In this document: piece after piece, positions 36,202 to 64,000 of the stretch
How positions within the stretch are numbered: the first letter of the stretch is position 1
How the letters are laid out: each line of letters begins with the position of its first letter
Assembly (NCBI RefSeq): GCF_003597395.2
Contig: NC_133782.1
Coordinates: forward strand, 1,033,143-1,097,142
Source: Chelonoidis abingdonii
Taxonomy: Eukaryota; Chordata; Testudines; Testudinidae
Direction of reading: 5' to 3'
Length of the DNA stretch: 64,000 nt
Notes under the pieces: model-generated
What the model was told of the DNA's origin: nothing
The model's input: the letters and a program-made list of their open reading frames with translations, nothing else
Databases searched by the model: none
Position numbers and translations under genes: made by a program

Positions 36202-36857
36202 GGAGAAGCTTTTATAGCATTTCAACACCTCCGAGGGACTTAGGTGAGGAAGGGGAATTCATGGAGACTCCTGTCATTGGGGATAAAAAACGAAATGATA
36301 TTTGCCTTAAAAATGCACAGAGGGCTTTTGTTGTTTCCAATCCTCAGCCCAGTGAGGCACTGATAGAAGCTAACTGATTGGGCCTCCAGGGGAATGGGGT
36401 CGTACTTGTGCCCATGGCTTGTCAGTAAGCAAATGGGATCAGTCTCCTAATCTGTGCATAGCCCCGTGCAAATCAGCCTGATTCTTGGGGCTCCAGAATA
36501 AGTCCCCCACAGGTGGCCTTGGTAAAGAACTTGGGAAGCTACTGCCTTCCTCTGAAGCCTGGAGCAAGGACTCTCTGCTGGGCTCAGAGGGTATATCCTA
36601 TGTGACCTGTTCTCTGCAGTCACCAATGGCCCTGGGCATTGGTGGATCTCAGTCCCTCCGTTTTCCTCCTTGTGTTTCTTTGCTTTGTCTTCCAAGACAA
36701 TTTCTAAACATGACAAGGTCCTGTTCATATCCTTATTCTGTGTGGGCAGGGACAGATACCTGGAGCTGGCTCCTTAGAACATGGAATTAGGCTAAACTAT
36801 GGGAGGTCCTTATAGCTGCTTCCTCCCACACTTGAACCAGCTCCACCTGGGTGTGAC

Positions 36858-36863
36858 TTTAAA
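36858..36863 (+). promoter_or_regulatory. TTTAAA core-promoter box of the acidic-repeat gene
   Basis: TTTAAA 55 bp upstream of the ATG. The same box occurs 55-56 bp upstream of the ATG in all five copies of the module (36858, 53833, 56108, 57270, 59340). It is probably a TATA-type element. Confidence 0.7.
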
Positions 36864-36912
36864 TTGCAGCTGGCTCAGCTCTGGGCACTCAGACCCAGCT
36901 CTTGGCAGCACC

Positions 36913-39900
36913 ATGAAGTCAGGGGGCCTCTTTCTTCTCCTGGGGCTCTTTACCTTCTGGACAGCACTACATGGTGCACCAACAAAAAGTGAGTACAGGC
37001 AGAGATGGGATAAGGGCATGGAGGGGAGACCTGGCATGGAGGGGCAGGGGCAGTGGGTGCTTGGAAATACTTGACACCTTAGTTGGTTTGTCTCACCAGT
37101 GGCCTGACGCAGGGACCAGTAGAAACATCTCCGTTGTCAGAGCCACTGGCAGAGGGATGGGACTGACCACAGCAAAGACAGGGTGAGGGGATGAGATTCC
37201 CTCGGAGCAGCAGACAGGATTACAGACCAGCTGGACTGGCTGCACACTGCGAGTTCCCGAGATGCCGAGTGACAGGCACTGAGGGCCAGGCATCCGAGGG
37301 CTCAGGCTGGCAGGCTCTGGACTGTTGTAGCTGGAGGCTTTTATTATCAATATAAGGATATGTAGGTGCTCAAACTCTGCACCACAGCATCAGCAAGGGG
37401 GAACAGGGTTGTCTGAGGTTGAGGAACCCAGGTGCAGATGGGGAGAGAAGAAGGGAGGCTCTACCCATGGTACTTCATGTGGGTCCCCAAGGCTGTTTCT
37501 GCTCTGAACTCTGTTTCTCATCTCAAACGTGAAACTCAGCAGGGAAGCCCATCAGGAACGGCCTTTTATGGGCTGCTGGGTGCTCCTGATTGCTCAAAAC
37601 GCACAGACCTGCTTTCAACGTGCTCTCTTCTTGGCGGGGTTTGTTAACGCGGAGCAAACCTTAGGGTCCTGCTGGCATTTCAGCAGCCAAACACTAACTT
37701 TGCAGGTTTGGAAAGCATCCCCATATGACAGCGCAGCCCTTAGTGACACTACTGAGCCACCCCTGCAAAGCCTCTGGTCATTTGCTCAGCTCTCTGAGAA
37801 GGGGTCTGTTTGGTTTGGAGCATTGTGTGCCGAGTGTAGCCCAAAGGGGCATGTGGAAAAAAAGCCAAAAAAATCTATGCTGCTGTTTTCCCAGTGGGGC
37901 GCTTTATGCAAAACACTTGATTCTTTCTTGACTAATCAGCTGTGCCCATATTGCTAGGCCCTCAGTTAGCCCCGAAGGGCAGAAGCTTAAACGTCTCCCT
38001 TGGCCCGGAGCATGTACTCAGGGAAGGAAGATCACTTTCCTGTGGCTGAAGAAAATCAAATGTGGGGATTGCAAAGTCCTGAGTGGTGGAAATGTCCATG
38101 CTGTCCATGTGCTGAGGAGAAATGCCCTGCATTACAGCTCCCACTGGAGTCAGCTGGATCAGGTCCTTCATTCTTCAGCCATGTTTTGCCATGTTCCATG
38201 TTGACCATCCTGTAGAGTCCTTTTATCTAATTCAGCCCAAAGGCTCGAATGTGAGTCCTGGAGATCAGGCTCCTTCAGCCGTGTTTAGGCCTCTAAATAG
38301 ATTTCCATGGAAGCTGTAGGTGCTCAGCACCTCTGATAATGAGACCACTTATTTAGGTTCCTAAGTGTGAGCTTAGAGGCCTGGGTTTGGAAACGTGTGA
38401 CTTTCATTTTTCAAGCAGCTCGCTAAAAATCCATTCCAAGGAGTTTCTAAGGCTCCACGTTATCTGCGTTATCATACAGCGTATAGCTATTTGCTGATGC
38501 CACAAACCCATTGGATGAGTTGGAGTTGTGTGTCTGTTTGTCTAACTGCCCTGGAAGAAGGTGGTAACAGTAAGAAATCTTTAAATAAATCAGAAGCAGG
38601 AAGCCTGCCAAACAGGCAGTGGGAGAATTAGATTACAAAGTCGTTAAAGGAGCACTTGGGGAAGACAAGGCCATTGCAGAGAAGCTAAATGAATTCTTTG
38701 CATCCATCTTCACTGCAGAGGATATGGGGGAGATTCCCACATCAGAGCTATTTTTTTGGGGGAGTAATAAATCTGAAGTACTGTCTGTCACGGAGTCACC
38801 GGGCGATGCTCTGGAACTGCTCCCCACCAAGCCAGTCAGGACTTTGGGGAGCCTCCTCTCCTTTGGAGCAGGCTTGTTCAGGGCAAGAAGCTCACATGTC
38901 TTCACCTCCTGGGTCTCACCTTGGAGCATTCAGCATCCTCTGTCCTTCCATGCTCTTCCCACAGCGAACCCGCCCCAGCGGGGTCCTGGGGACGCCACAG
39001 GGTCCTGCACCCCCATTTTGCAGTCAGATGTGACTCTCAGCCAGCCAGTAACACAGAGGTTTATTCGATGACAGGAACAGGATCTAAAACAGAGCTTGTA
39101 GATACAGTGAACCGGACCCCTTGGGACCCAGGCCATCAGTTGCTAGAAGACAGAGTGTCAGGCATTTATGTTCACTGTCCCTTTGCTCTGTAGCAATCAC
39201 ACACCCTTATCCCACCACCTAGATACTTAAGAACTGCATAGGGGACACTGAGGCACCAACACAGTATTCAGAGCAAACATTAAGAACATTCCCAATTCGT
39301 CACACTGTCCCACACAGATGTGTCAATAGAAGAGGTCTTAGAACAAATTGACCATTTAAACAGTAATAAGTCACCAGGATCAGAGGGTATTCACCCAAGA
39401 GTTCTGAACGAACTCAAATGTGAAATTGCAGAACTACTAACTGTGGTATGTAACCTATTGCTGAAATCAGCCTTTGCACCAGATGACTGGAAGTTAGCTA
39501 ATATAATACCGATTTTAAAAAGGACTCCAGAGGCGATCCTGACAATTACTGACCAGTGACCCTAACTTCAGTACCTGGCAAACTGGTAGAAGCTACATTA
39601 AAGAATAGACTGACCAGACATCTAGATAAACATGATTTGTTGGGGAAGAATCAACACGGCTTTTGTAAAGGGAAGTCACATCAATCCATTGGAATTCTTT
39701 GAGGGTGTCAACAAGCATGTGGAGAAGGGTGATCCAGTGGATATAGTGTACTTGGATTTTCAGAAAGCCTTCGACAAAGTTCCTCAACAAAGACTCTTAA
39801 GGAAACTGAGCAGTCATGAGATAAGAGGAAAGGTCTTCTTGTGGATCAGTAACTGGTTAAAAGATAGGAAACAAAAGGTAGGAATAAATGGTCAGTTTTC

Positions 39901-42900
39901 AGAATGGAGAGAGGTAAACAGTGGGGTCCCCCAAGGATCTGTCCTGGGTCCTGTACTGTTCAACGTGTTTGTTAATGACCTGGAAAAGAGAGTTGAAGAG
40001 GCAAAATTTGCAGATGATACAAAATTATTCAAGATTGTTAAATCCTAAGATGACTGCAGAGTTGCAGGGGGATCTCGCAAAGGTGTGTGACTGGGCAACA
40101 AAATGGCAGATGAAGTTCAACACTGATAACTGCAAACTAATGCACATTGGAAAAAAATAATCTCCACTATACATATCCAATGATGGCTTCTAAATTAGCT
40201 GTTACCACTCAAGAAAGAGATCTTGGAGTCACTGGATAGTTCTCTGAAAACTTCAGTTCAATGTGCAGCCACGGTAAAAAAAGCTAATGGAATGTTAGGA
40301 ACTATTAGGAAAAGGATAGAAAATCAGACAGAAAATATTGCCACGATATGGATCCATGGTATGCCCACACCTTGACTACTTTGTGTAGTTCTTGTCACCC
40401 TATCTCAAAAAGTATACAGTGGAAATAGAAAAAGTTCAGAGAAGGTCAGTAAAGATGCCTAAGGGTCTGGATCTGCTTCCATTGGATTAGGGCTGTTCAT
40501 CTTAAAAAAGAAAAGATAAAGGGGGAATCAGGAACCCACAAGGGGAGAGGCAATTCTCGATTTAGTCCTGAGTGGAGTGCAGGAGCTGGTCCAACTGGTA
40601 ACTATAACAGGACCGCTTGGAAATAGTGACCATAATATAATAACCTTTAACATCCATGTGGTGGGAAAAACACCTCAACAGCCCAACACTGTGGCATTTA
40701 ATTTCAGAAAGGGGAACTATGCAAAAATGAGGTTAGTTAAACAGAAATTAAAAGGTACATTGACTAGAGTGAAATCCCTGCAAACTGCATGGACACTTTT
40801 CAAAGACACCATAATAGAGGCCCAAATTAAATGTATACCCCAAATTAAAAAACACAGTAAAAGAACTAAAAAAGAGCCACCGTGGCTTAACAACCATGTA
40901 AAAGAAGCAGTGAGAGACAAAAAGGCATCTTCTAAAAAGTGGAAGTCAAATCCTAGTGAGGTAAAAGGGAGCATAAACACTGCCAAATTAAGTGTACAAA
41001 TGTAATAAGAAAAGCCAAAAAGGAGTTTCAAGAACAGCTAGCCAAAAAACTCCAAAGGTAATAACAAAATGTTTTTTAAGTACATCAGAAGCAGGAACCC
41101 TGCTAAACAACCAGTGGGCCCCTGGACGATCAAGATACAGAAGGAGCGCTTAAAGACGATGAAGTCATTGCGGAGAAACTAAATGAATTCTTTGCTTCAG
41201 TCTTCATGGCTAAGGATGTTAGGGAGATTCCCAAACCTGAGCCATCCTTTGTAGGTGACAAATCTGAGGAATTGTCAGATTGAAGGTTTCAGAGTAGCAG
41301 CCATGTTAGTCTATATCCACAAAAAGAACAGGAGTACTCCTGTTCTTTTCACAGATTGAAGTGTCACTAGAGGAGGTTTTGGATTTAATTGATAAACTCA
41401 ACAGTAACAAGTCACCGGGACCAGATGGCATTCACTCAAGAGTTCTGAAAGAACTCAAATGTGAAATTGCGGAACTATGAACTATGGTTTGTAACCTGTC
41501 CTTTAAATCAGCTTCTGTACCCAATGACTGGAGGATAGCTAATGTAAAGCCAATATTTAAAAAGGGTTCTAGAGGTGATCCCAGCAATTACAGACCGGTA
41601 AGTCTAACNNNNNNNNNNNNNNNNNNNNNNNNNNNNNNNNNNNNNNNNNNNNNNNNNNNNNNNNNNNNNNNNNNNNNNNNNNNNNNNNNNNNNNNNNNNN
41701 NNNNNNNNNNNNNNNNNNNNNNNNNNNNNNNNNNNNNNNNNNNNNNNNNNNNNNNNNNNNNNNNNNNNNNNNNNNNNNNNNNNNNNNNNNNNNNNNNNNN
41801 NNNNNNNNNNNNNNNNNNNNNNNNNNNNNNNNNNNNNNNNNNNNNNNNNNNNNNNNNNNNNNNNNNNNNNNNNNNNNNNNNNNNNNNNNNNNNNNNNNNN
41901 NNNNNNNNNNNNNNNNNNNNNNNNNNNNNNNNNNNNNNNNNNNNNNNNNNNNNNNNNNNNNNNNNNNNNNNNNNNNNNNNNNNNNNNNNNNNNNNNNNNN
42001 NNNNNNNNNNNNNNNNNNNNNNNNNNNNNNNNNNNNNNNNNNNNNNNNTCCATCAAATGTATGTATATTGGGGTTATTTTCCAATGTGCATTACTTTTAC
42101 ATTTATACACATTAACATTTCATTCCATTTTGTTTGCCCAATCACTGTAGTTTTGTGAGAATCTTGTTTTGGAAGACTTCACAGTCATGCTTTGGTCTTA
42201 ACTATCTTGAGCAGTTTAAGTATTCATCTGCAAACTTGCCACCCACTGTTTACCCCTTCTCAGATCATTTATGATTAAATTTGAATAGGATTGGTCCTGG
42301 ACTGACCCTGGGGAACACACTAGTTACCCTCTCCATTCTGAAATTTTACATTTATTCCTAAACATTTGTTCCTTTGTCTTTTATAGCAAGTTCTCAAATC
42401 CATAAAAGGACCTTCCTCTTATCCCATGACAGCCTTAATTTATTAAGAGCCTTTGGTGAGGAACCTTGTTCAGAGGCTTCTGGAAATCAAGTACACGATT
42501 GTCCACTGGATCCCCCTTTGTCCACGTTTGTGACCCTCAAAGACTCTAATAGATTAGTAAGAATGTGATTTCCCTTTAGCAGAAACCAGTGCATTTTTTT
42601 TTTTTTTTTTTTTTTTTGTTTTTTTTTTTTTTTTTTTTTTTTGGGGTTTTTGGGTTGGCCCAGGTATTTTTTCTATGGGTCTGACAATTTATTCTTTACT
42701 TGTTTCAACATAATTGCCCGGTACTGAACATAGGCAGCAGGTTTAAAACAAATAAAAGGAAGTTCTTCACGCAGCGCACAGTCAGCTTGTGGAACTCCTT
42801 GCCTGAGGAGGTCGTGAAGGCTAGGACTATACAGCGTTTAAAAGAGAACAGGATAAATTCATGGAGGTTAAGTCCATGAATGGCTACAAGCCAGGATGGG

Positions 42901-45900
42901 TAAGGAATGGAGTCCCTAGACTCTGTGAGAGGATGGAGATGGATGGCAGGAGACAGATCACTTGATCATTACCTATTAGGTTCACTCCATCTGGGGCACC
43001 TGGCACTGGCCACTGTCAGTAGGCAGGATACTGGGCTGGATGGACCTTTGGTCTGACCCAGTATGGCCATTCTTATGTTCTTATATGATAGAGGTCTATA
43101 AAATCATGACTGGTGTGGAAAAAATGAATAGGGAAGGCTTATTTACCCTTTCCACAATACAAAAACCAGGGGTCACCCAGTGAAATTAATAGGCAGCAGG
43201 TTTAATACAAGCAAGATGAAGTACTTTTGCACACAACACAGAATTAACCTGTGGAACTCATTGCCATGGGATGTTGTGAAGGCCAAAAGTATAACTGGGT
43301 TAATAAAAGGACTAGATAAGTTCATGGAGAATAGGTCCATCAATGGCTATTAGCCCAGATGGTCAGAGACGCAACCACATGCTCAGGGCGACCCTAAACC
43401 TCTGAATGCCAGAAGCCAGCAGTGGAAGACAGTGGTGGATCATTCCAGAATTGATCTGTTCTATACACTGTTCCTGAGCATGGCCACTGTTGGAGACAGG
43501 CTACTGGTCTAGATGGACAATTGGTCTGACCCAGTAGGGAAGCTCTGACATTCTTCAATTCTCTTTGAAGAAGCCACTGTTTAAGGGAGTCCCATTTTCT
43601 GGGAGGGAGTCAGTCCCTGGAAGGGGTGTACTCTCCCAGCCCTGCCTCTGCTTCAGTGTCAGATTGTTTTTCGTTCTCTCTGCAACATACGTTTCTCACC
43701 CTGGATTTCTCCCAACGTGACCAGGATTTACTAGCAGATGTTTGCTCAAGTGTGGAGATGACCAGGACTGTCCTGCAGGGCATAAGTGCATCAGTACCAA
43801 GGGAAGGCTTGTCTGCAAACCTGTGACTGCTGGAGGTAGGGTCCCCTTTGAACATCAGACTTGCTCTCCACGGCAAGCTGCCTGCTCTCCTGCATGAAAC
43901 AGCATCTTTTTTGGATGGTCTCTGGGCTCTGTCGAGTCTTGAAGGCACAGGCCCCTATTGTCTGTTGCCTCCCAGAGCTTCTGGGGAGGGCATCCCCTGT
44001 GCCAGCCCTGAAGGGTAGCAGCATATTCCCCTTTCCTTGGCTGGAGAATTCTACTGGCTGGTGCAGCGGGGAGTAGGGCCATGTCCTTCCTCCTCTGGAC
44101 CCCTCCCCAGTAGCCGTAGCCCCATGCAGTGACTGCAAGCATGCAAGAAGCCCTTGCATCTCCCATCTTGCCCTCCCACTCAGGACCTGGGAACAGCCTG
44201 GCCCTCTCCCTGCTGATCCTCTGCAAATGATCAATAGCATGTTTTAAAACAGTGACACAAACAATACAGAGAATATTGACTCTGGAAATTAAATGCCAGC
44301 CAGCCCCTCCCCCAGGGACTCACACCCTCCGCAGTCTGCTTGCTGGGCAGTATTGACTTGCTATTCTGTACGGCACATGGCACTTTGAGGAGAAAAACAA
44401 TATGACAGGCCCCTGTCTTGAGGAGCTTCCAGTTTAAGTGGGAAATACTCCAGTAAGGACAACACTAAAGAGAACGAGGGGGCAAAGGAGGACAAGAGTC
44501 ACAACATGGACAAATCATTAGATAGGCCTGGTGTTCTGTGCCCATCTTGTTTGTTAGGCCAGGTGGAAGTCCAGCCCGTAATCTCCCCACCCCACCAGGT
44601 TTGATGACTCTTAATATGTTGCCTTGTAATGATGGATCCATAGCGCCATCCTCTGCTTCTCTGAATAACCTTTCCCAACAATATCTTCCCAGGCTGCTCA
44701 GAACTCAGACATGTCACTGAGGCTGGCTGCCAGGCTGATATACTGGCTGCCTGAGGGACGAGCTGGTTTTTCAGGAGGAAGGCTGACCTGTCTCGGGTTA
44801 TTGAGTGGGGGTTGTTGTGTTTGTGGGCTGAGCTGAAGTTAATGCCACTGGTCAGTGGAGCTGGAGGGGTAATTTCCATCTCGGGTAGATGTACCCACGC
44901 TAGCTCTGACTGAGCTCAGGTGCTGAAAATAGCAGTGTAGCTAAGCTGTATGGGCAGCAGGCCAGCTGCAGCCCCCTACAGGAAGGGATGTAGAAATTCC
45001 CATCCAAGAGAGACACTCTAGTGGCAGTGCCTTTTGGAATCCATCCTTTCCAAGAGACCATAACCCATCTTCCTCACAGCCCTTTCCCTGTCACCTTAAT
45101 CTGGAGTGTCCATGGTTCCTGACTCACTGAATGCTAGCTTTTAAAGTCCCTTCAGGACAAGAGGAAATAAACTCCATGGCCCAGTGACAACTGAGACTTC
45201 TGTCCACGTCCCGCTATGGCAATGGATTCCCATTGGAGACCCACACAGAGTTATCCTGCTCTATGTTTCCTTGGGAATACCTCCTATGCTTGGAGTACGT
45301 GATACCTCAGGGAGGGTAATGACTTTCTCCTGTCTGAGCAGTGTGGCATCTTGGAGCAGAGGCTGATAGTGAAGAAAAGGTCCTGGGATGGAGAGGGACT
45401 CAGATGTGCATGATGCCATGTGCACTGGAGCTCTGTATGTATGGCACAATTATGATGTGGAGGCAATGAGCATGGCATAGGTGCAGTGTGGAGCCTATAA
45501 ACTGAGCCTGAATTCTGCAGAAAACGAGAAACTCTGTAACTGATTCAGGTGAATTCTGAAATGGAAGTTTTCACAGGATAGTACAGTCAGTGCAGCATTG
45601 CTTGTGTTCTTTATTTTGATATGAAATTCAGTTTATTTTACTGTGCTTTTCCATTTTCAGTGTCCCACGGATTTTTGCATTGTCAGCCAGTAAGTGCTTT
45701 ACAGAATTTGTTGCAGGAAGGTAGAGGTTTTGGCAGTTGCAAAGGGGACATTGGGGTTATGGCAACAGAGATGGCATCTTTGATCACCCAAACTGCAGTT
45801 GACACTGGAGGCCTGGGGGAAGAGCATCTCCTCTCTCCACCCCTCTTTCAGGCAGGTTTGGAGGGGAGTAGAGAGGCTTCACTTCCTCATTCCCCACCAC

Positions 45901-48900
45901 ACCCAGCAGCCCTCGACAAGCTATCCCACTGCACTGCACAACGGTGCCTGCCACTATATCAAATAATGCCAGCTAAGTGCATTAACCTGATGTTTCTGCT
46001 TAAATGATCACCAATGAAGTTGATATTTGGTGAAGATATTTAGTGTAATGAAGCTGGAATTTAGTGTATTGTCACTGGGACTAGGGGGAACCTACCTCAA
46101 GATTAATGGGGACAGTTCACATCTCTCAGCAGTATTGTTTCAAGCTCCCGGCAGACATGAGATTGAAGCTTTTGACATTTTTCTGTGTGCCTGTAGGAGG
46201 AGTGGGATGGTGGTAGTGGAACAGGTTTTGGTGCCAGCTGGGAATGGGGGTAGGTGAACTACAAACGGGTCAGATGCTTGGGCCTCTTTTTGTTTCCTTT
46301 GAAGCAGTTCAGCCACCTGCTAGGAAAGGTCTTCCTACCTCACACAGAAGGCAGGAGGAGAAAAGATCCCTGACATCCAGGAAGTCTTGTTGGGCTGCAG
46401 GGTTCTGATCCCCTTGTGCCAGCCAAGAAACAACCTGCCTCCGTGAGCTCAGCTCATTGATGCCACGAGCACTGCACATCCTGAAAGAGACTCAAGCAAA
46501 GACCTGGGAGTTTGATGCTTGTTCTTCCTGACTAATAAAAAAGGGCCACAAGTAACTGGTGCCTCTCCTGACTGAAACAGCTTTACTGAAGAAATCTCCC
46601 CTCCCTCCTTCAAACTCCCAAGAGTCCAGCCAACAATGAAGAAATCCATCATGTCAGACTGAGAGACAGACAGAGCTTGAGCAATGGGCTCAATCGCATC
46701 ACTGACTGCACTTCTGGAAGTTGCTCAGATACCACAGGGATGGGTGCAGTATAAGAACCTGCATAGAATAGAATCAGGTACCAGATGTACAGCTGCATAG
46801 AGACTATCCAAGGTAAGGGGCACTGCCCATAACCTATAGACAGGTTGCTGCAGTGTGAAGGAAGTGCGAAGGGCGGGCTGGGAGCAGCCATATGTGACTG
46901 AGGCATATTTGGGTCTCTGACTCTCCTGTTTTCTCTCCCATTTTCAGGGATCCATGGCACAGCTTCTCCTCTCTCTGGCGACGACCCAGGGAAGCACATA
47001 TTAGAAGAAGATGAGCCGAAGGAAAAACTTGTGTTGGGGGTAACAAAACTGGTGTCTGGAGCAGAACCTGGATCTGATGAAAAATCTGTGTCTGGTGGAA
47101 AAGATGATGATGATGACTGTGATGGGAGGGATGAAGACTCCAACATGAGGGATTACAGCTCGGATGGGGCTGATAACTTTAATGGGGGAGATGGGTCTGA
47201 TGTGAGGAATGCTGACGTGGCTGGGGCTAATGACTTTTCCAGGCTAGATGAGTCTAACGTGAGCAATAATGACTTTGCCAGGGCTAATGATTTTGCTGGG
47301 GCTGAAGATGATGCTGACCTGAGCGAGGATGACTTTGCCGGAGGAGACGATGACGCTGACCTGAGCGAGGATGACTTTGCCGGGGGAGATGATGAAACTG
47401 ACCCGAGCGAGGATGACTTTGCCGGGGGAGACGATGAAACTGACCTGAGCGAGGATGATTTTGCTGGGGCTGAAGATGACACAGACCTGAGCGAGGATGA
47501 CTTTGCCGGAGGAGATGATGACAGAGACCTGAGCGAGGATGACTTTGCCGGGGGAGACGATGACGCTGAGCTGAGCGAGGATGACTTTGCCGGGGGAGAC
47601 GATGACGCTGACCTGAGCGAGGATGACTTTGCCGGGGCTGAAGATGACACAGACCTGAGCGAGGATGACTTTGCCGAAGGAGACGATGACACAGACCTGA
47701 GTGAGGATGACTTTGCCGGGGGAGACGATGACTCTGACTTGAATGAGGATGACTTTGCTGGGGGAGACGATGATGTTGACTTGAGCGAGGATGATTTTGC
47801 CGGAGGAGACAATGATGCTGACCTGAGCGAGGATGACTTTGCCGGGGGAGATGAGGACGCTGACCTGAGCGAGGATGATTTTGCCGGAGGAGACGATGAT
47901 GCTGACCTGAGCGAGGATGATTTTGCCGGGGCTGAAGATGACGTTGACTTGAGCGAGGGTGATTTTGCCGGAGGAGACGATGACGCTGACCTGAGCGAGG
48001 ATGACTTTGCCGGGGGAGACGATGATGCTGACCTGAGCGAGGATGACTTTGCTGGGGCTGAAGATGACACAGACCTGAGCGAGGATGACTTTGCCGAAGG
48101 AGATGATGACACAGACCTGAGCAAGGATGACTTTGCCGGGGGAGACGATGACTCTGACCTGAATGAGGATGACTTTGCTGGGGGAGATGATGACTCTGAC
48201 CTGAATGAGGATGACTTTGCCGGGGGAGACGATGATGTTGACTTGAGCGAGGATGATTTTGCCGGAGGAGACGATGACGCTGACCTGAGCGAGGATGACT
48301 TTGCCGGGGGAGACGAGGACGCTGACTTGAGCGAGGATGATTTTGCCGGAGGAGACGATGACACTGACCTGAGCGAGGATGACTTTGCCGGGGGAGAAGA
48401 GGATGCTGACCTGAGCGAGGATGACTTTGCCGGGGGAGATGAGGATGCTGACTTGAGCGAGGATGACTTTGCCGGAGGAGATGATGATGCTGACCTGAGT
48501 GAGGATGACTTTGCCGGGGCTGAAGATGACGCTGACCTGAGCGAGGATGACTTTGCCGGGGGAGATGATGACGCTGACCTGAGCGAGGATGACTTTGCCG
48601 GGGGAGATGATGACGCTGACCTGAGCGAGGATGACTTTGCCGGGGGAGATGAGGACGCTGACCTGAGCGAGGATGACTTTGCCGGGGGAGATGAGGACGC
48701 TGACCTGAGCGAGGATGACTTTGCCGGGGGAGATGAGGACGCTGACCTGAGCGAGGATGACTTTGCCGGGGGAGATGAGGACGCTGACCTGAGCGAGGAT
48801 GACTTTGCCGGGGGAGATGATGGCACTGACCTGAGCGAGGATGACTTTGCCGGGGGAGATGATGGCGCTGACCTGAGCGAGGATGATTTTGCTGGGGGAG

Positions 48901-49463
48901 ATGATGGCGCTGACCTGAGTGAGGATGATTTTGCTGGGGGAGATGAGGATGCTGACCTGAGTGAGGATGACTTTGCTGGGGGAGATGATGGCGCTGACCT
49001 GAGTGAGGATGACTTTGCCGGGGGAGATGATGACGCTGACCTGAGCGAGGATGATTTTGCCGGGGGAGATGATGACGCTGACCTGAGCGAGGATGACTTT
49101 GCCGGAGCTGATGATGACGCTGACCTGAGTGAGGATGACTTTGCCGGAGCTGATGATGGCGCTGACCTGAGCGAGGATGATTTTGCTGGGGGAGATGATG
49201 GCGCTGACCTGAACGAGGATGACTTTGCCGGGGGAGATGATGACGCTGACCTGAGTGAGGATGATTTTGCTGGGGGAGATGATGACGCTGACCTGAGCGA
49301 GGATGACTTTGCCGGCGCTGATCATGATGCTGACCTGAGCGAGGATGACTTTGCCGGGGGAGATGAGGATGCTGACCTGAAGGACAGTGACTTTACCGAG
49401 GGAGATGATGATTCTTCCCTGCGGGATGGAGGCTCTGAAGGGGCTGAAGACTGTGATAAGTGA
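36913..49463 (+). CDS. Secreted acidic 14-residue-repeat protein (novel)
   Basis: Predicted 863 aa from two exons: 36913-36988 (signal peptide [20 protein letters not shown], phase 1) and 46948-49463 (stop TGA), joined as K-R-IHG. The acceptor (ttctctcccattttcag) and phase fit exactly. Mature part: a linker ([20 protein letters not shown]), an acidic region with degenerate repeats, then 49 uninterrupted 14-residue units (47304-49361), consensus [14 protein letters not shown], a degenerate fiftieth, and a tail ending EDCDK. Each consensus unit has seven acidic and no basic residues. The only cysteines lie just before and after the array. SEDD is a CK2-type phosphorylation site in nearly every unit. 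Exon 1, its promoter and the first 300 bases of intron match the WAP gene at 59.4 kb. No family recognised. Layout resembles semenogelin-type genes derived from WAP genes. Function unknown; metal or mineral binding is a guess. Confidence 0.75.
36990..37290 (+). repeat. Duplicated intron 1 start (matches 59469-59776)
   Basis: About 300 bases nearly identical to the intron 1 start of the WAP gene, including GGCATGGAGGGGCAGGGGC and GGTTTGTCTCACCAGTGGCC. With the promoter and exon 1 the match spans roughly 36850-37290 against 59335-59776. Confidence 0.9.
38560..40500 (+). mobile_element. CR1 LINE with an LTR insertion
   Basis: Plus-strand reverse transcriptase. 39320-39560 encodes [20 protein letters not shown], and 39720-40030 encodes [20 protein letters not shown] and [20 protein letters not shown] with the catalytic FADD. 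Frame breaks throughout. Interrupted by the LTR at 38786-39304. Confidence 0.92.
38786..39304. mobile_element. Solo LTR (Gypsy-type) with perfect target duplication
   Basis: A 519-bp LTR, TGTCACGGAG to ATTCGTCACA, flanked by CTGTC on both sides (38781-38785 and 39305-39309), within the CR1. Confidence 0.9.
40510..41608 (+). mobile_element. CR1 LINE, endonuclease end to RT, cut by gap
   Basis: 40577-41005 encodes the C-terminal part of the CR1 endonuclease region ([13 protein letters not shown]) and the linker before the reverse transcriptase; 41390-41600 resumes RT ([20 protein letters not shown]). The gap at 41609 truncates it. A 66-bp PLE insertion sits at 41286-41351. Confidence 0.9.
41286..41351. 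mobile_element. Short inverted-dimer PLE insertion with perfect palindrome
   Basis: A 66-bp insertion flanked by a perfect 10-bp duplication CAGATTGAAG (41276-41285 and 41352-41361). It reads the PLE terminus GTTTCAGAGTAGCAGCC and ends in a perfect 28-bp palindrome whose left half is AAAAGAACAGGAGT. Confidence 0.85.
41609..42048. other. Assembly gap (440 N)
   Basis: Run of N inside a CR1. The CR1 orientation flips across it (plus on the left, minus on the right). Confidence 1.
42049..42720 (-). mobile_element. CR1 fragment with indel-rich sequence
   Basis: Minus-strand CR1 resembling 2340-2880, but with many single-base indels and a poly-T run at 42595-42642. The error pattern suggests low-quality gap-edge sequence rather than biology. 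Confidence 0.7.
42722..43553 (+). mobile_element. Two CR1 3'-end fragments
   Basis: The first (42722-43083) ends GGTCTGACCCAGTATGGCC and TTCTTATGTTCTTAT, the CR1 terminus. A second, more diverged 3' piece follows to about 43553 (GGTCTGACCCAGTAGGG). Confidence 0.85.
43560..46940. other. Rest of the acidic-gene intron
   Basis: No exon that keeps the phase-1 junction is convincing. A MITE fragment related to 24603-24930 lies at 44883-44960. Nothing else recognised. Confidence 0.5.
47304..49361 (+). repeat. 42-bp coding tandem array, 49 units
   Basis: 2058 bp, exactly 49 x 42. The unit reads around GACCTGAGCGAGGATGACTT, then TGCCGGGGGAGATGATGACG and CT. No unit has an indel. Units 8-14 and 18-25 share the same order of variant units, indicating a block duplication. 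Confidence 0.97.
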
Positions 49464-50950
49464 GGTGATAATTCTGACCTCTGTCATGGTGACTCTAAAC
49501 AGCTGATGGTTTGGAAACCTTTTGAAATCAGATCAGCCTCCAAATACATTCCTGGCAACCAGAGCCTCTCTTTTCTGTCTGACTTTTTCCAGCTCTCCCT
49601 TCTCTTTCACTAGTGATTGCCTGGGATCATGCTGCCTCATTGAATGAGAAGGTTACTGCTAAGGGATCATTCTCTCTGGGTGAAGGAAATCAACATTCAG
49701 GGATCTTTGCTCCCTGGCCTGAATATGGTGCAAGGGGATATTGGGGTTCTCTTTCTAGGCTCATCACCCTAGTGTCTGAGCACTTTGATTCAGCTTTCAG
49801 GTCGTTTTTTCTTGAGATAGATTTTCTTTCTTATTAAATCTTTCCTGATGGGTTAGACAGTCCCTGGCATTGATGTTCTCCACTCCTAGCAGTGTCCAGG
49901 TTCAGGCCAGTTCTTCTCGGGTATCTGTCCCATCACATGGTGCGCCAAGAGCCATTCCCTCTGGACACTTTCAGGCTGGGCCTGGGGCCAGTATTTTCAT
50001 CTGGGAGCTGGAATTCCAAGCTGAAGGAAAACTCATTTACTCACAAATTCTCCTCCTGATGTGGATCCCCCTGCCCTGAGGTCAGCCAGATCTTCTGGCT
50101 AAAAGTAATCATAGCCGTGGTTTGGGCTGCTTGGACGGGTCTCTGCCACTCCATTCTCCTGGGGACAGTGCAGACTTGAGGTAACGTGTTGGAAACCATA
50201 CGTATGACTCAGTTACCCAGCTGTGCACATCAAAACTGAGCTCCCCATTCCTGGAAGGCTCCTGAGAAAGGATTGTGGAGTGAGCAAACAGGCAGTTCAC
50301 ACCTGGCACCTGAATCCAGGGTTAACAGTGTGTGAATAAGTCATGTCTTTACTAAACATGCAGAAAGAGAGCCAGGATGGCCTCATGGATGAAACCCAGG
50401 ATTAGGTCTGGGTATATTCCCTCTGTGCTCTGCCATGTTTGGAACCTCAGCTCTGCCATGTGTAACTGTTTGGCTTGGGGAAGACATTGTATATCTGTGT
50501 GTAGCTTTCCCCAGGTGTGGAATGGAATGGGGGGACCTACCTCATGGGGACTGTGAGGACTCACCGGTTCAGGCCAGCAAAGCGCTTAGTAAATGTGTAA
50601 CAGTAACTATTAGAATGTAGGGGAAGAAACTGTGTGTAGGGCTGTAGGGGCTGATTCTCCACGTCACCAGCCCAGTGCTGGGCGCAGTTGTAGGCTGCCT
50701 GATTTCCATGAACAAGTGTTGAGGACACACCTTCAAGCTATGTATTTGGCCAACTGGGTGTTCAAACGGCCACCCATGCAGGCTGATCCGCACATTGCAT
50801 GGTGCCTGCAGATTAGAGACACAATTATGCTTTGTAAAAACCCTTCTTGTTTTCACTGTTCTCTTCCTTGGAGTAAAAAGTCCCCTTCTCGTAACACTGT
50901 TGTTAACGGAGCTGTTTGTTTCTCTCTGCTGCTTTGCCCCCCATTCTGCG
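49464..50950 (+). other. 3' side of the acidic exon or last intron; no other feature
   Basis: No gene or named repeat recognised. It lies between the stop codon and the candidate 3'-terminal exon. Confidence 0.45.
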
Positions 50951-53270: not shown

Positions 53271-53551
53271 GTGAAAACATGGGCATTAGTGTAAAGATTG
53301 GTCTGCTCCATGTCACTGCTCCCAGAGCTCCCTATGCATATCCCAGAGCTTATCTGTGATTACTGGGAAAGTTTCCCACCAGGCAACTCAATGTGTCTCT
53401 GTCTCTGGATTGTAGCCCTGAACCGAAGCATCTGCCTTGGATCTGGGCTGACAGGCCCAGGAGGGGCGGGGTGGTGGGGGCTGCACAGGTTGGGAAAGGC
53501 CTGACCTGGAGAATGGAAGCAGATGCCAAGATACAGGGGTGTCAGGAAATG

Positions 53552-53557
53552 TTTATT
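53552..53557 (-). promoter_or_regulatory. Possible polyadenylation signal for the Kunitz unit
   Basis: AATAAA on minus in the context CTTCCTCAATAAACATTTCC. It lies about 2 kb downstream of the second Kunitz exon and could end that transcript. Confidence 0.35.
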
Positions 53558-53832
53558 GAGGAAGAGAAGGAATCCCAGGAAAGCACGACCTGTTCTCCCA
53601 GTAACAGCACCGGGGATGGGGAGAGTCCCTGGGAGTCGGGTCTTTGTCTTCCGTCTAATCCAATCTTGGCAATTGGTCAGTGTGGCTGAGGCAGCTCATC
53701 CCCTCTGGAGTCTGGGTTCGGGCAGACAGGAGTTAGGGAGACCCTGGGAAATAGGACGAAGCCGTCAGAGCTCTTGTACCATGGCACTGAGGCACCTCCC
53801 CCACTCCTTAACCAGTCCTGCCTTGAAGATGG

Positions 53833-53925
53833 TTTAAATTCCAGCCTGGCTCAGTGCTGGGTACTCAGAGCTGACCCTCAGCAGCACCATGTCATCAGGG
53901 TGCATTGACCCCCCACTGCCGGGGG
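53833..53925 (+). pseudogene. Relic promoter/exon 1 module (fourth copy)
   Basis: TTTAAA at 53833, the shared leader (CCTGGCTCAGTGCTGGGTAC, then TCAGAG), and an ATG at 53889 reading MSSG instead of MKSG. The hydrophobic signal sequence is lost right after. No payload exon found on plus before the next genes. Confidence 0.7.
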
Positions 53926-54139
53926 CACCTTACACACCTAGCGGGTATATTTCCATTTCCTTGGTGAGGCACTTTCACTGCTAGAGCTGCAGGCAGAGAG
54001 GAACTGAGACTCTTCCAGCTTGGGAGGGTGGGCAGAGGGGGAGGACAGCCAGTGCTGCAGGAGTGGGATGAGCTCCCTTCAGTCTGCAGCTATGCGACTG
54101 TGAGAGATGGGCCACGTACACAGTGTGTGATGCTGTAGG

Positions 54140-54960
54140 GAACAGGGGTGACCATTTATAATGTTATTGATACCAGTATTACAAAATTACAATGAGTCTT
54201 ACAAGATATGTCATGTACGGTATCAGTGGAAAAGTTATGATTGGCTAAATATGATAATCATGTTTCTATGTATGTATCTTATTTGTACTGTGAGTTATAA
54301 ATATGTGTGGTATGTTTGTATTTCAAACTTGTGCTGTGTTTCTGGGTGACACCCCCCAGACAGATTGGCATCAGCACTATCCAACAGCTATGCAATGAAC
54401 CCATGGAGAGAAAGCAGGGGTTACACCTATGAGTCAGCAGGACATGTAGGGACATGTCTGTGGACAGGGGTCCGCAATTGCTTTTCCAGGCCCATGTGCT
54501 TGTAGGTTTGTGTTTGGGACACAGGATGTACAAGCCACATGACAAAGAATACAAAATGGCAGCTGCATCTTCTCCATTTTTGTCTTCAATCCTGCTTTTC
54601 ACCTCTGGAGTAACTTCTCTACACACTGAAGCTCTGAAAAAGGACTGAATAACCCATCTAGGCTGTGAAAGTGTTCCAGAGGGACTCTACAAGTCAACAA
54701 ACTCACCAATGCTGCTAAGAACCTGATATATGGACTTTGAAATTATAAGTATGGATCTGATTGCTTTGACCATTTAATAGCTCTCTTGTTCTTTTCTTTT
54801 CTAATAAACCTTTAGTTTTAGACACTAAAGAACTGGCCGGCAGTGTGTTATTTGGGGTACGATCCAACCTAATACAGACCTGGCAATGTGATTGGCCCTT
54901 TGAGGTTCAGAAGAACATTTTGCAGACTGAGCTGAGTTTTGAAAGAATTGCTCACCTTAC
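54140..54960 (+). mobile_element. Probable solo LTR, unclassified
   Basis: Dispersed-repeat character with a T-rich tract and AATAAA near 54803 (TTTTCTAATAAACCTTTAG). This text resembles a common turtle LTR from memory only; boundaries are not defined. Confidence 0.35.
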
Positions 54961-55282
54961 TGCACCCAGGTGCTGATTGGGAGCCAGAGAACAGGAATGC
55001 AGTAAAAGGGGCTGGGTGATTTCTTTCTTTTTTTAGCATCCTGATAACCAGTGTGGGGGAGCAGGAGCACAGTTTGTGACTGGTTGATGAATCTGACTTC
55101 AGTGTTAACCTCCAGCTTTGGGAGGATCTGTCTCCTTTTTTCAGCCTGTCCTGACCTTGGCATTTTCAGTGAGGGCTGCCCTTTTCACACACATTCACCG
55201 TCTCCACACCTCAGATATGCACGTGCTGTCCGTGTACCCTGCATGCTCCACGTCCAGATATCCATGTCTAGATAATACTTAG

Positions 55283-55352
55283 TCCTGCCATGAGTGCAGG
55301 GGGCTGGACTAGACGACCTCTCAAAGTCCCTTCCAGTCCTAGGATTCTATGC
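55283..55352 (+). mobile_element. CR1/SINE 3'-tail fragment
   Basis: GGGGCTGGACTAGACGACCT followed by TCCCTTCCAGTCCTAGGATT, the common 3' tail of CR1-type elements. Confidence 0.7.
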
Positions 55353-55530
55353 TCCATACCAACTGCAGCAGCCCTGAAACACACCTAGACTACACCCAGG
55401 CACCGTAGGAATAGGTAGGGGACGTACATGAGGGGCACCATTTACTGGAGAGCAGCCTGGGGGCCCTGGTGTGTTCCCAGCATTTCCCTGTATAAGTAGC
55501 AGCACCTGCTCAGGTTGTCATAGGTCTGAC

Positions 55531-56057
55531 CCTGGCCTGCACAGGCCTGGAGACAATCGACTTTAGTCTCAGAGTTGTTCTTGTTCCCATTGCAGCCACT
55601 GTAAGAGAATTCTTCACACTTGTAGACCCATCGAGGAATGGCAGCAGTACAGAGGCCCACTTCAGTGGGGAGGCTGTGGATATCTGTGGGCACAGGACAG
55701 AGAAACAAGGGATTCAGAAGCAGACTTCTGCCAAGGATCTGTCTCCCTACGCCCAGATGAAGTGGGTGGGGATGAGGGCACAGGAGCAGAGGCTTGTCCT
55801 ATGGGCATCTCTGTGAGATGTCATGTAGCCTTTACCACCCAAAGTGAGAAATCATCAGGGAAAAATATCCGTGTCCAGCTTCAGCAGAGACTTAGCACCC
55901 TGGGGCAAGGGCGTTCCAGAGGATGGAAGATTCCCTCCTTCCCCCACAGAGCTGGCAGTGCCCCTCTGAGCGCTAGAGGAATGGCACAAAGGATTGCACG
56001 TGGACACAGAAATGGACGTCTGGAATCCCTGGAAAGGAAGATGGCCCCTGACTTCAT
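55531..56057 (-). pseudogene. Degenerate Kunitz unit (second copy)
   Basis: An exon at 55683-55531 (153 nt, phase 1-1) encodes a Kunitz-like domain: SLPTEVGLCTAAIPRWVY, then KCEEFSYSGCNGNKNNSE and DCLQAC. Cys1 is replaced by histidine and five residues between Cys2 and Cys3 are deleted relative to the neighbour, although the frame is kept. Upstream, a TTTAAA box (56108-56113) and an ATG at 56057 begin MKSGAIFL as in the intact genes, then the signal sequence is lost. It could be a dead gene, or its exon could be used as a second domain by the Kunitz gene at 57220, since exon phases allow that. Confidence 0.6.
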
Positions 56058-56861
56058 GGTGTTGGTGGGAGCCAGGTCTGAGTGCCCAGCGCTGAGCCAG
56101 GCTGGGATTTAAACAAAAACCCAGGTGGGGCCAGGTCAGGTGTGGGGAGAGGTGGCTCATGTGACCTCTTGGCTCTGCCATGCACCAGTGCCCAGCACAC
56201 GCTGTCTGACAATAATCTATCCCCCGGAAGGAACGAGGAAACAACCCAGATCCTGGGGTCTGAGGACCTCCCTGCACTCAGCAGCTCTGTGACTGCAGAG
56301 TTCGGTGTAAACGGGGTGACTCCACTGCAGTCCCTAGGGACATGAGTGTGAAACCCAAGAGAGATCAGGATTAGCACGGAAGAGCCTCACCCCTTCGTTG
56401 TGGAAACATTGCAGCACAGAAATGACCAACACCCTCTTCTTGCTTCAGCAAAGACCCCAAGTCTCTGAGGGCATTGGATCATTCAGACCATGGTCAGTCA
56501 GTGACTGATTTCTCCTCCCATCTCTCCGTGAGTGAGGGGGGTGCCCTGGCCCACAGGCAGCCCTGTGTCACAGCCTGGAGCAGGGCTCGGGGTAGGTTTA
56601 GTTATAAACGACGGGATCTTACCCTGCACAGGTTTGTGCCGAGTGCTCGTGTTCAGACACCCAAGCCCAGCAGGGCTCTTCCCATCTGCGGCCTGGCCAA
56701 AGCAGGGCTGGAATTGAGTTGGCAGGTCTAGGGGCCTTCACAGCACGAGAGAGCTCAGGGACCTCCAATCAGGGAGTGGAGATCAGCCCCAGTGGCCCAG
56801 CCATCTTCCCAAACTGTGGCGCAGGACTAGGGCCAGCCCAGCACCCAGCCCTGAGCCTCAC

Positions 56862-57220
56862 CGTGCCCATCGCACTTCCTGAGACATTCTGTTTGAGTCT
56901 CAGAGTTGTTCTTCTTCCCATCACAACCTCCATAGGTGAATTTCTCACACTTCTTGGCCTGCCAGTCATGGAACCAGTGAGGAATCATGGCATAACAGGA
57001 CCCGGGGTCAGCAGGGAGTCTACAAAGGTCTGAGGGGCAGAGCAGAGAGAGAAGTGTCTGAAAGGCAGAGCAAAGCCAGTTGGAGCTGGGAAGCAGAAAA
57101 TGAGGGTTTCTCCTCCGTCCCCCTCCACTGCCTGCTGCCCGCACTTACCCCAGCCGCAGGCAGCAGCTGGGCCCAGAGGGCCAGGAGCCCCCGAAGGAAG
57201 AAGGTGGCCCCTGACTTCAT
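56862..57220 (-). CDS. Secreted Kunitz-type protease inhibitor (exon phase conflict)
   Basis: Exon 1 (57220-57149) encodes signal peptide MKSGATFFLRGLLALWAQL; TTTAAA lies at 57270-57275. Exon 2 (57029-56862, 168 nt, phase 1-1) encodes one Kunitz domain with all six cysteines: CRLPADPGSC, then YAMIPHWFHDWQAKKCEKF, YGGC and ECLRKC. The P1 position after Cys2 is tyrosine, which predicts chymotrypsin-like rather than trypsin-like targets. Exon 1 ends GGG|GTAAGT in phase 0, one base short of the family's G|GTGAGT, so direct splicing to exon 2 shifts frame. A sequencing error, a weak donor four bases on (A|GTGCGG), or a recent pseudogene would explain it. A symmetric 63-nt exon may follow at 56685-56623. 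SPINT genes hold this place in mammals. Confidence 0.7.
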
Positions 57221-57275
57221 GGTGCTGCCGGGAGCTGGGTCCAGTGCCCAGTGCTGAGCCGGGCTGGGATTTAAA

Positions 57276-59334
57276 CCCTGTGGGGCCAGGTTGGAAGGGT
57301 GGGAGGAAGCCGCAGTGACCTATCGGCTCCTGCCACGCTCCAGCTCCCAGCACGCACTGTCTGACAATAAATCAGTTCCCCCAGATGAAACGAGGAAACA
57401 AGCCGGATCCCGGGGTCTGGGAATACCCCTCGAAGGAACCTGGAGAAACAGGGAGGTCCAGGCTCAAAAGTCCCGTTGGCTGCAGTCTCAGCGACTGATG
57501 GGGGCACATGCCCACCCCTTCCTAGGGGACAGACCCTGCTCAGTGTCCCAAGGGAAGGGAAATCCCTGGCCCCTGCCAGTGACTCTGGGGGTGAGCATGT
57601 GTAATTCCTTCCTGGCCCCAGGAGTCCAGACAACTTGGCCGGCAGGGGAGTGTGTGTCACCTTTTAACCCCAGACACAGGATGGGAGCCAGGTCATGGCC
57701 CTTTCCCTGCTGCATCCCCAGTAGCTGGTTCCGCCAGCCCCCGTGGGGCCCAAGAGACGGGACCAACCCTGGAAAAAGTCCCTGCAGGGGATTCAATTCC
57801 CAGCAGTGCCCATTGGACCCTAGCTACTGCTCAGCTGCCCCTTCCCTGCAGCCTGGCTGCATCTGTCTGGCCAGAGGGACCATGGGGCCATGGCCCATCC
57901 CCCAGCCCCTCCATTTCCCAATGTGGGGGACCTGCCCAGGGGAATGAGGAAATGGCCGTGGCCCAGAGCAAGGGGGGAATCAGCTATGGACACACTGGGC
58001 TTGTGTTGCTGCCCTTGTGAACTGCCAGAGCCTGACATGGGCTCAAAGCTCCCAGAGCCGTCCTCCCTGAGAAACCAGCCAGGCAGGTCCAGCGCAGCCC
58101 TGCAGAGCTGGAGGCCTGGTCATCTGTGGGGACCGGCCTGACCTGCCCACCCTGGCCATGACGATGCAGAGCGCAGGGAGGAGCCTGGTTTGGGAAACCC
58201 CCTTGAAGGAACCTGGGGAAAGAGGAAGGTCCAGAGCACCCCGTAGGGAGACAGCCTGGTGCAAAGTGAGGCTGATGGGGAGGTGAGCTGGGAGCCCAGC
58301 GTTCATGTGAACAGGACGTGGAGACGGGGCATGTTGTGCAGTGGGGCTGAGAAGGCCAAGAGGATTCTGGGTAGCAGGTGACACAGTGTACCGAAGGTGT
58401 GGTGACATGGAACAGGCTGTCTGCCCTGCTGGTACCAGGGCATCACATGCCCTGCGCTGCTCAGCCATGCTGGAGTCTCCACAGTGCACTGCTGCAGCCT
58501 GTGCCAAATCAAACATCCTCCACACCTGGCATGTTGTATGCCACACCAGGCATGGTACTGAAACCCTGCCCAAGGCCAGGGACAGGCTCCTCCTGGATGC
58601 CTGCATGCAGCTCCGGGCTTGTCAGCTCCCCAGGGATGCACTAATTCTGGAGAAGGTGCAAAGAAGAGCAGTTGCCGAGGGTCTCAGCTAGAGATCTGAA
58701 CCCTGGGCAGCGTGGGGACCAGCAGCTAGGGAGAGGTGATGGCCTCGATGAGGATCTGTCAGGCTGAAGCAGTAGCCAGGGGTCACATGGGCACTGCTGG
58801 GAATGGAATCCACTTCAGGCCTTTGCTTAGAGCCAATCCCATCTGGGGAATCAGCGGGGAATGGGCTGTGACCTGGCTCCCACCCCGTGTCTGGAGTAAA
58901 GGGTGACTCGCGCTCCTCCATGGGCCAGGCTGTCTCCAGACCTAGGATCGGAAAGGAACTACGAGTACTCATACATGCCAGTGCGTACAAATAGACACTC
59001 CCCCCCACCAATGTGCACACAGACACACACACGCGTGCGCCAGAGTTTCTCCTTGTCTTGGGCACTGAGCAGAGACTGTCCCCTGGGATGGGATGGGCAT
59101 GTTCTCCCATCAGTCCCTGGATCTGATGGGACTTTGGAGCCTGGGCCTCCCCATTTCTCCAGGTTCCTTTGGGGGCATTTCTCAAACCACAAGATCTGGA
59201 TTGTTTCCTTGTTCCATGCAGGGGGACTTACAGGTGGGACTGGTTTATTGTGAAATGAAGTGAGTTGGGTGCTGGGCCAGAGAAGGAGCCAAAAGGTCAC
59301 CATGAACCACCTCCCCTCTCAGCTGCAGCAGGGA
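57276..59334. other. Intergenic, no gene recognised
   Basis: Divergent space between the Kunitz (minus) and WAP (plus) promoters. A CR1-like fragment lies at about 58565-58690. Nothing else recognised. Confidence 0.5.
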
Positions 59335-59339
59335 CAGGG

Positions 59340-59345
59340 TTTAAA
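59340..59345 (+). promoter_or_regulatory. TTTAAA core-promoter box of the WAP gene
   Basis: TTTAAA 56 bp upstream of the ATG, followed by the shared leader GGCTCAGCACTGGGCACTCA and CCCAGC. Confidence 0.7.
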
Positions 59346-59395
59346 TCTCAGCCCGGCTCAGCACTGGGCACTCAGACCCAGCTCCCCGCAGCACC

Positions 59396-62278: not shown

Positions 62279-62551
62279 ACCCAGGCGCCACAGGGGACAT
62301 GCTGCCCCTGTCCCCGTGACCTACACGAGACAATTGCCGAGAAAGGATCAGCCTGCAAAGGTCCCACTTCCAGGGACCTCCCTCTGCTCCCCTCCCTCTG
62401 CCCAGCCCCTTTGGCTACTCCAGCTGCCCTTGGACTCCATCTGCCACATGACGTCACTAGTGCCTCCTGCACAGAGGCTGGGTAGGTGTAGTGGGGGAGC
62501 GAGCGTGTGCCCAGCTGCTGTCCAGCAGCACCCCGCGAAGGGCTTAGTAAA

Positions 62552-63370: not shown

Positions 63371-63569
63371 AGCTCAGAGCCAGAGCCAGAGCCAGACCTT
63401 TCCCAGACAGCTGAGAGGGCCCAAATGTGGGTGCAATGTTGTAACGTGCACTGACTGTAGCACTGTGTGCTGATGGGCCGCTCCAGCCAGTTCCCCGTCT
63501 GCTTGCACAGTCTGGACACACCCCAAACACGCCGTCTGCCCCTCTGTCCAAGGGACCACACCAGAGACG

Positions 63570-63795
63570 TCGATGTGTCTGGTGAAGTACACGGTGAAGT
63601 GTTGCCCAAAGAGATATGGCTCTAGCTTCTTAAGGGCCCACACCATGGCCAGGCATTCCTTCTCGATGGCCGCGTGGTTCTGCTCCCGGGGTAGCAACTT
63701 CTTGCTCAGGTACACGATGGGGTGTCTCTCCCCCTTTTTATCCTCCTGCATTAACACCGCCCCCAGTCCTGTGTCTGAGGCGTCAGTGAACACTG
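63570..63795 (-). mobile_element. Gypsy (Ty3) RNase H remnant
   Basis: Minus strand encodes FTDASDTGLGAVLMQ, HPIVYLSKKLLPREQNHAAI and KECLAMVWALKKLEPYLFGQ, the RNase H segment of Ty3/Gypsy pol. The frame loses the motif after about 63590. It abuts the LTR at 63796 directly, so the rest of the internal region is missing. Confidence 0.9.
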
Positions 63796-64000
63796 TGACG
63801 AAGTGGGGGTTTTCTTGGGGTTTTCTGTCTTTTCCAGGGTTTGCATGCACAGGGGGTAGGACTCAATGTACCTGGGTGTTACTGGTTTAACGAGGTGAGG
63901 GGAGAGGGAGTTTGTTGTTACAGAGGACCGGAGAGGGACCCCAGCCCAGGAGACACAACCGGTTCTGGCCAGTGGGAGGACAATGGGCTGCAGAGAGAGG
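63796..64000 (-). mobile_element. Gypsy LTR, partial at window edge
   Basis: Reverse complement of the 3' part of the solo LTR at 29189-29973 (ends CTTCGTCACA on minus). It continues past the window edge. Confidence 0.9.

Follow-up and report, generated by a model that had tools for sequence, protein, structure and literature searches.

A candidate tortoise gene of semenogelin-like layout with 49 acidic repeats at the WFDC/Kunitz locus

What is a long, regular and strongly acidic repeat doing beside a group of protease-inhibitor genes? The question is raised by a 64,000-nucleotide stretch of the tortoise Chelonoidis abingdonii (assembly GCF_003597395.2, contig NC_133782.1, positions 1,033,143 to 1,097,142 of the forward strand), referred to here as the window and numbered from its first base. 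On its plus strand lies an open stretch encoding 49 acidic units of 14 residues, which a first-pass annotation of the letters had proposed as the second exon of an undescribed secreted protein. Our answer, on which belief and doubt are about evenly balanced, is that the stretch belongs to a protein-coding gene at the WFDC/Kunitz locus that is laid out like a REST (semenogelin) gene, and that its product would be a secreted, calcium-binding polyanion.

Repeat array and reading frame

The acidic coding exon, exon 2 of the proposed gene, extends from an acceptor at 46948 to 49464 (+), and includes one base of 3' untranslated sequence if the donor GAG/GTGATA at 49465 is used. Read from 46950, the frame holds 837 sense codons and then TGA at 49461-49463. 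Tandem Repeats Finder places an array at 47287-49411, with a period of 42, 0% indels and 89% matches; the 49 canonical 42-bp units, with a 14-residue consensus, occupy 47316-49373 (+) and are units 5-53 of 54 rows anchored on F. The exact 42-bp phase claimed in the first-pass annotation is thus borne out, as is its statement that variation is limited to a few positions of the unit: the 49 units comprise 42 distinct DNA forms and 24 distinct peptides, differing mainly at position 14 (A/T/S/V/R), position 10 (G/A) and positions 11-13.

The array is flanked by degenerate units on its 5' side and by a single divergent one on its 3' side. The N-terminal part of the exon (46948-47315, +) passes from non-repeat to degenerate-repeat sequence and contains Cys83 and an N-glycosylation sequon at residue 129, while the divergent last unit and the C-terminus (49374-49463, +) include Cys861 and end in GAEDCDK before the stop. 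Sequence 3' of the TGA still resembles a decayed unit (GDNSDLCHGDS). The likeness of units 34-39 to units 36-41 is 97%, which points to growth of the array through duplication of neighbouring units and makes a variable copy number probable.

The exon had also been singled out for its long open frame. It is indeed open to the TGA, but the length is weak evidence of coding because a stop-free unit of 3n bases keeps frames open: three antisense frames across the array run for 722, 762 and 702 codons. We therefore did not accept the long open frame as proof of coding.

First exon, splice sites and 3' end

Exon 1 (36913-36988, +) consists of 25 codons and one further base, encodes a putative signal peptide and ends in a phase 1 donor, AAA/GTGAGT. 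It matches four other first-exon copies in the window, in keeping with its earlier assignment to the local WAP/Kunitz exon family. Identity to the first exon of the WAP gene further along the window is 51 of 73 positions (70%), and the similarity continues upstream, where the leader at 36846-36912 and that of the WAP gene at 59329-59395 share 53 of 66 aligned bases. Further matches to the leader and first exon are found at 57313-57173 (-), 56146-56027 (-) and 53833-53903 (+). By similarity to the other leaders, a TATA-like TTTAAAT box and the 5' untranslated leader can be placed at 36858-36912 (+), with a presumptive promoter role for the box.

Splice sites were scored with a weight matrix. 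Of the 562 GT sites between 36.9 and 50.0 kb, the donor at 36989 ranks 5th; of 1022 AG sites, the acceptor at 46948 ranks 2nd. Exon 1 has 76 coding bases and ends in phase 1; the acceptor is also phase 1, so the two exons join in frame, as had been proposed. The region's top-scoring acceptor is at 45852. Another stop-free phase 1 stretch, of 114 codons, lies at 45661-46004 (+) after a fair acceptor (10.12 bits) and has no recognisable product.

The proposed intron 1 (36989-46947, +) contains fragments of reverse transcriptase that we assign to a CR1-like LINE, as well as an assembly gap at 41609-42048 and the WAP-like exon discussed below. Its first part (36989-37284) is identical to the WAP gene at 59469-59769 at 281 of 294 positions, far above the adjoining signal-peptide exons (70%). 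A constrained element, a rapidly evolving exon or gene conversion in the recent past could each account for this greater likeness of the intron; a passage on armadillo trappins likewise describes an exon 2 less alike than the intron (PMC2831891).

A candidate 3' non-coding end with the poly-A signal ATTAAA (49833-49838) lies at 49798-49848 (+). Its 51 bp match, at 74.5% (blastn E 0.012), the end of a 3' exon-like stretch on the minus strand (53592-53542), where the signal reads AATAAA. The Smith-Waterman score is 37, with the poly-A signals aligned; none of 2000 dinucleotide shuffles reached 37 (maximum 33), in a test that, like the shuffle tests of the WAP-like exon below, was made on chosen stretches. 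Among 236 other combinations of 500-base segment and strand in the window, a single one reached this score, and that segment holds the WAP gene's own 3' exon. Two donors lie at the stop: GAG/GTGATA at 49465 (38th of 562), with the stop one base upstream, and TAA/GTGAGG at 49460 (24th), which overlaps the stop and whose use would remove it and alter the C-terminus. Without a splice at the stop, exon 2 would run through to the poly-A site.

Predicted product

The whole protein has 863 residues, with no Gln, 11 Lys, one N-glycosylation sequon and the two cysteines, 83 and 861, flanking the array. If the signal peptide is cleaved after residue 20, as we assume, the mature chain has 843 residues, a mass of 86.9 kDa, a pI of 4.05 and a net charge of -362; Asp makes up 35.5% and Glu 9.6% (together 45%), which bears out the acidic product of the first-pass annotation in numbers. 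The array holds one Lys and one Arg. S-E-D occurs 43 times in the protein and S-x-E once. From its composition, the product is predicted to be largely disordered, Ca2+-binding and gel-forming.

Tests for selection on the frame

The ratio of replacing to silent variation (pN/pS) of the array is 0.191 in the proposed frame, and 1.574, 1.652, 2.476, 1.608 and 0.246 in the five others. Silent changes are in excess when variants are weighted by frequency (p 0.011). We did not take pN/pS alone as evidence of selection, the third positions of the unit being CpG-rich, and the products of CpG decay were compared as well because such decay could mimic a low pN/pS. At the four CpG sites of the unit, the counts of TG (silent) to CA (replacing) are 10:1, 9:0, 26:1 and 11:8, and the fourth of these sites lies next to residue 14, which is itself variable. 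Across the array, CpG decay favours the silent product.

Searches for relatives

The acidic protein was compared with 5.8 billion proteins, at lengths of ~475-1510 and 164-521 residues, and no relative of the same kind was found among the 8000 candidates with most shared words that were scored for each length range. One match was returned, P0001 (E 5.7e-4), with none in the other length range at E up to 10; P0001 was rejected as a relative, as it has no such unit and carries other Pfam domains, presumably of the pentapeptide type. As controls, a query with the neighbouring Kunitz protein retrieved 8 of 8 candidates from the same database, all turtle by name, and copies of the full acidic query would still score E 4e-295 or better after randomisation of up to 30% of their sites. 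The protein would thus appear to be unannotated, or much changed, in the turtles covered by the database; within this scope, the first-pass description of it as undescribed holds.

The acidic exon matched no Pfam family at E up to 1, a WAP domain included, and no NCBIfam family; a single PDB chain at E 0.13 was taken as chance, and assignment to a known family was rejected. In the open-licence literature, we found no paper on such a reptile gene, on a link between turtle WFDC genes and semenogelins, or on such a protein of turtle eggshell, oviduct or epididymis, and the phrase 'turtle eggshell proteome' did not occur in the part examined.

Alternative explanations

The likeliest alternative, which we consider improbable although it deserves serious weight, treats the array as a minisatellite within a WFDC gene copy that is dying or was never expressed. 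The frame would then be open simply because the 42-bp unit has no stop and unequal exchange keeps its copies alike, and exon 1 and the 3' end would be remnants. The open antisense frames of 702-762 codons fit this explanation, as do the absence of an annotated turtle protein among the candidates scored and the first-exon relic at 53833, which shows that gene copies decay here. A test in which distinct variants are counted once also fits: 10 of 27 are silent where 8.4 are expected (p 0.24), so that no silent excess is seen. Set against these are the 49 units without an indel, compared with 2-11% indels in 15 of the 19 other repeat rows of the window (some of them overlapping), the fact that the frame stays open over a further 368 bp outside the canonical units, as far as a strong acceptor in phase, and the CpG products, which stand at 45:2 toward the silent side at three sites.

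The non-significant test on distinct variants is one of several points that weigh against the REST-like gene we propose. An antisense frame, which shares third positions with the proposed frame, has a nearly equal pN/pS (0.246). At the CpG site with counts of 26:1, the state met most often is TG, not CG. Since units exchange sequence, the CpG counts are not independent of one another, and binomial p values for them overstate the case. Both donors at the stop are middling in rank (24th and 38th of 562). The 3' match covers just 51 bp, and the candidate 3' end compared with the WAP gene's 3' exon is not significant (score 25, p 0.08). The 440-base gap in intron 1 (41609-42048) could hide an exon, and the WAP-like exon gives exon 1 another possible partner. 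No annotated relative was found despite the coverage of turtles, and a well-expressed gene might have been annotated. Finally, the proposed gene is deduced here from DNA.

The WAP-like exon, absent from the first-pass annotation, is a degenerate exon of 111 bp, phase 1 at both ends, at 43725-43835 (+); it passes the Pfam WAP cut-off of 20.8 with 22.1 bits. Against the local WAP domain, it scores above 2000 of 2000 shuffles as protein and 999 of 1000 as DNA. It has 5 cysteines compared with the usual 8 of WAP, and so lacks the full four-disulfide core; it also matches other Cys-rich families weakly (Lustrin_cystein, 19.1 bits with a cut-off of 27), and its best PDB match is an arthropod toxin chain (E 0.023). 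It may be a middle exon or a relic of an ancestral inhibitor gene.

If it is used, a version of the gene that we regard as quite unlikely, a signal peptide, a degenerate WAP head and a polyacidic tail would be read in frame over ~900 residues, giving a targeted polyanion whose head binds a partner and whose tail binds calcium. Besides the Pfam score, its position between exons 1 and 2 on the same strand, its donor (8.0 bits) and its length and phases, which keep the frame with or without it, all speak for this version. The acceptor, on the other hand, is weak (5.09 bits), and the odd number of cysteines, 5 of 8, together with the weak scores of Lustrin_cystein and others, fits a decaying relic; relics of sibling-gene exons are present in intron 1 of guinea pig and rabbit REST genes, according to a section of PMC7556508.

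That the array belongs to a different transcript is highly improbable. Such a transcript would encode either a Ser/Pro/Lys repeat protein, read from the 722-codon antisense frame at 49321-47153, or an acidic protein that starts from a different first exon. The antisense frame is open with a pN/pS of 0.246, but the 5' and 3' family matches are on the plus strand, and the three candidates of a signal-peptide scan of the window include none in 37-46.9 kb, a weak point in that the threshold also missed exon 1.

Comparison with known systems

The closest parallel to the proposed gene is provided by the REST genes, comprising SEMG1/2, rodent Svs2-6, guinea pig Svp1/2/5 and rabbit SVP200. Sections of PMC3209443 and PMC7556508 describe them, for mammals, as having a signal-peptide exon, a phase 1 major coding exon with few 3' untranslated bases and a 3' non-translated exon, at the WFDC locus and with repeat expansion. 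The tortoise gene has in common with them a WFDC/Kunitz locus, a WFDC-type exon 1, growth by repeats and, if the acceptor at 46948 is used, a phase 1 exon 2. REST genes share their 3' end with inhibitor genes, for which the 51-bp family match in the tortoise is suggestive; their major exon ends a few bases past the stop, and the tortoise stop stands one base before the possible donor at 49465. Some of them also have relics of sibling-gene exons in intron 1, where the tortoise has its WAP-like exon.

Unlike the Gln- and Lys-rich transglutaminase substrates encoded by REST genes, the tortoise product has no Gln and few Lys and is polyanionic. The gene adjoins DNTTIP1 and UBE2C and, by the human gene order, does not lie in the SEMG/PI3/SLPI sublocus. 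We therefore describe it as built like a REST gene without counting it as a member, and its origin was probably independent. The WAP/Kunitz-type exon 1, the in-phase join and the acidic product of the first-pass interpretation are retained, while the gene as a whole is recast as a REST-like gene of the WFDC locus with a possible WAP middle exon.

Trappin/elafin (PI3) and the WFDC inhibitors have the same type of exon 1, phase and locus, and trappins join a repeat segment to a WAP domain. In contrast to theirs, the tortoise repeats are acidic rather than transglutaminase-substrate hexapeptides, and the WAP domain is degenerate or unused. Matrices of calcium carbonate also contain proteins with inhibitor domains or with acidic stretches, among them perlwapin, lustrin A, ovocalyxin-25 and Asp-rich shell proteins (PMC2989941, PMC4550075); Pfam, NCBIfam and PDB searches gave no sequence relation of the acidic exon to such matrix proteins.

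The SIBLING/SCPP proteins (osteopontin, MEPE/OC-116, DSPP) are likewise secreted and acidic, and some occur in eggshell. Their genes form the SPP1 cluster, with phase 0 introns and an S-x-E kinase motif. The tortoise gene differs in its WFDC locus, its phase 1 junctions and its single S-x-E as against 43 S-E-D.

As to distribution, a section of PMC2831891 gives for chicken and zebra finch only trappin-related genes without a repeat segment, and calls typical trappins eutherian-specific. Semenogelins are dated to the eutherian radiation in a 2026 secretome paper (PMC13354781), and turtles are reported, in a review (PMC8144736), to lack MEPE/OC-116 in seven species.

Proposed origin, function and significance

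Most likely, a duplicated protease-inhibitor gene lost the use of its WAP domain while a short acidic stretch was expanded. In the resulting gene, exon 1, homologous to the local first exons, would provide the signal peptide; the phase 1 exon 2, enlarged by tandem duplication to 49 acidic 14-residue units, would carry the stop at its end, where a donor may be used; and the non-coding 3' end with its poly-A signal, on the evidence of the short match, would come from the same gene family.

The product is predicted to be a secreted, largely disordered polyanion of ~87 kDa with a net charge of about -360. Its clusters of D and E would bind Ca2+ through multivalent, low-affinity contacts, regularly spaced Leu and Phe could serve as weak sticky points, and the one Cys near each end may link chains. 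The result could be a gel or coating, hydrated and rich in calcium, within a secretion of the reproductive tract, for example that of the oviduct and eggshell or the epididymal fluid. Semenogelin-like clotting by transglutaminase through its own glutamines is not expected because the product has no Gln.

More broadly, and only tentatively, reptiles may have evolved a REST-type gene from the WFDC/Kunitz cluster independently of mammals. Its product, a very large secreted polyaspartate that might carry a WAP head, would use charge in place of transglutaminase cross-links to organise the calcium of eggshell or semen. If so, large secretions built of repeats have arisen repeatedly from inhibitor genes of the WFDC cluster, and the chemistry of the new exon can differ widely; if the protein is in eggshell, it is a candidate acidic matrix protein of turtles.

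Locus and neighbouring genes

The surroundings were searched with seven human probe proteins. Strong matches identify UBE2C at 5126-959 (-) and DNTTIP1 at 18132-6840 (-), which in human flank the telomeric WFDC sublocus. The WFDC2 and SLPI probes matched the local WAP exon only (E 1e-4 and 0.011), and the SDC4 tail, YWHAB and TNNC2 probes gave nothing convincing in the window. Because UBE2C and DNTTIP1 are accompanied by WAP and Kunitz neighbours, the repeat gene is assigned to the WFDC/Kunitz locus.

The WAP neighbour (59396-62382, +) has a signal-peptide exon, a WAP exon (Pfam WAP, E 1.1e-10) and a 3' exon whose far end is provisional. The Kunitz neighbour (53540-57313, -) has a signal-peptide exon and two Kunitz exons at 57024-55445 (Pfam Kunitz, two stretches, E 1e-29), and corresponds to Chelonoidis abingdonii protein P0006 in two exact pieces of 38 and 80 residues. 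Its second domain (55445-55684, -) has lost the first cysteine and about five residues relative to Mauremys protein P0002. The 3' exon-like stretch at ~53760-53540 is placed with the Kunitz gene by strand and position only, and aligns to the WAP gene's 3' stretch with a score of 103. Facing away from it, at 53833-53903 (+), is the relic of a further first exon, with leader and ATG, which we read as a sign of gene-copy turnover at the locus. At 63374-63862 (-), a fragment resembles what we take to be the RNase H region of a Ty3/Gypsy-type element.

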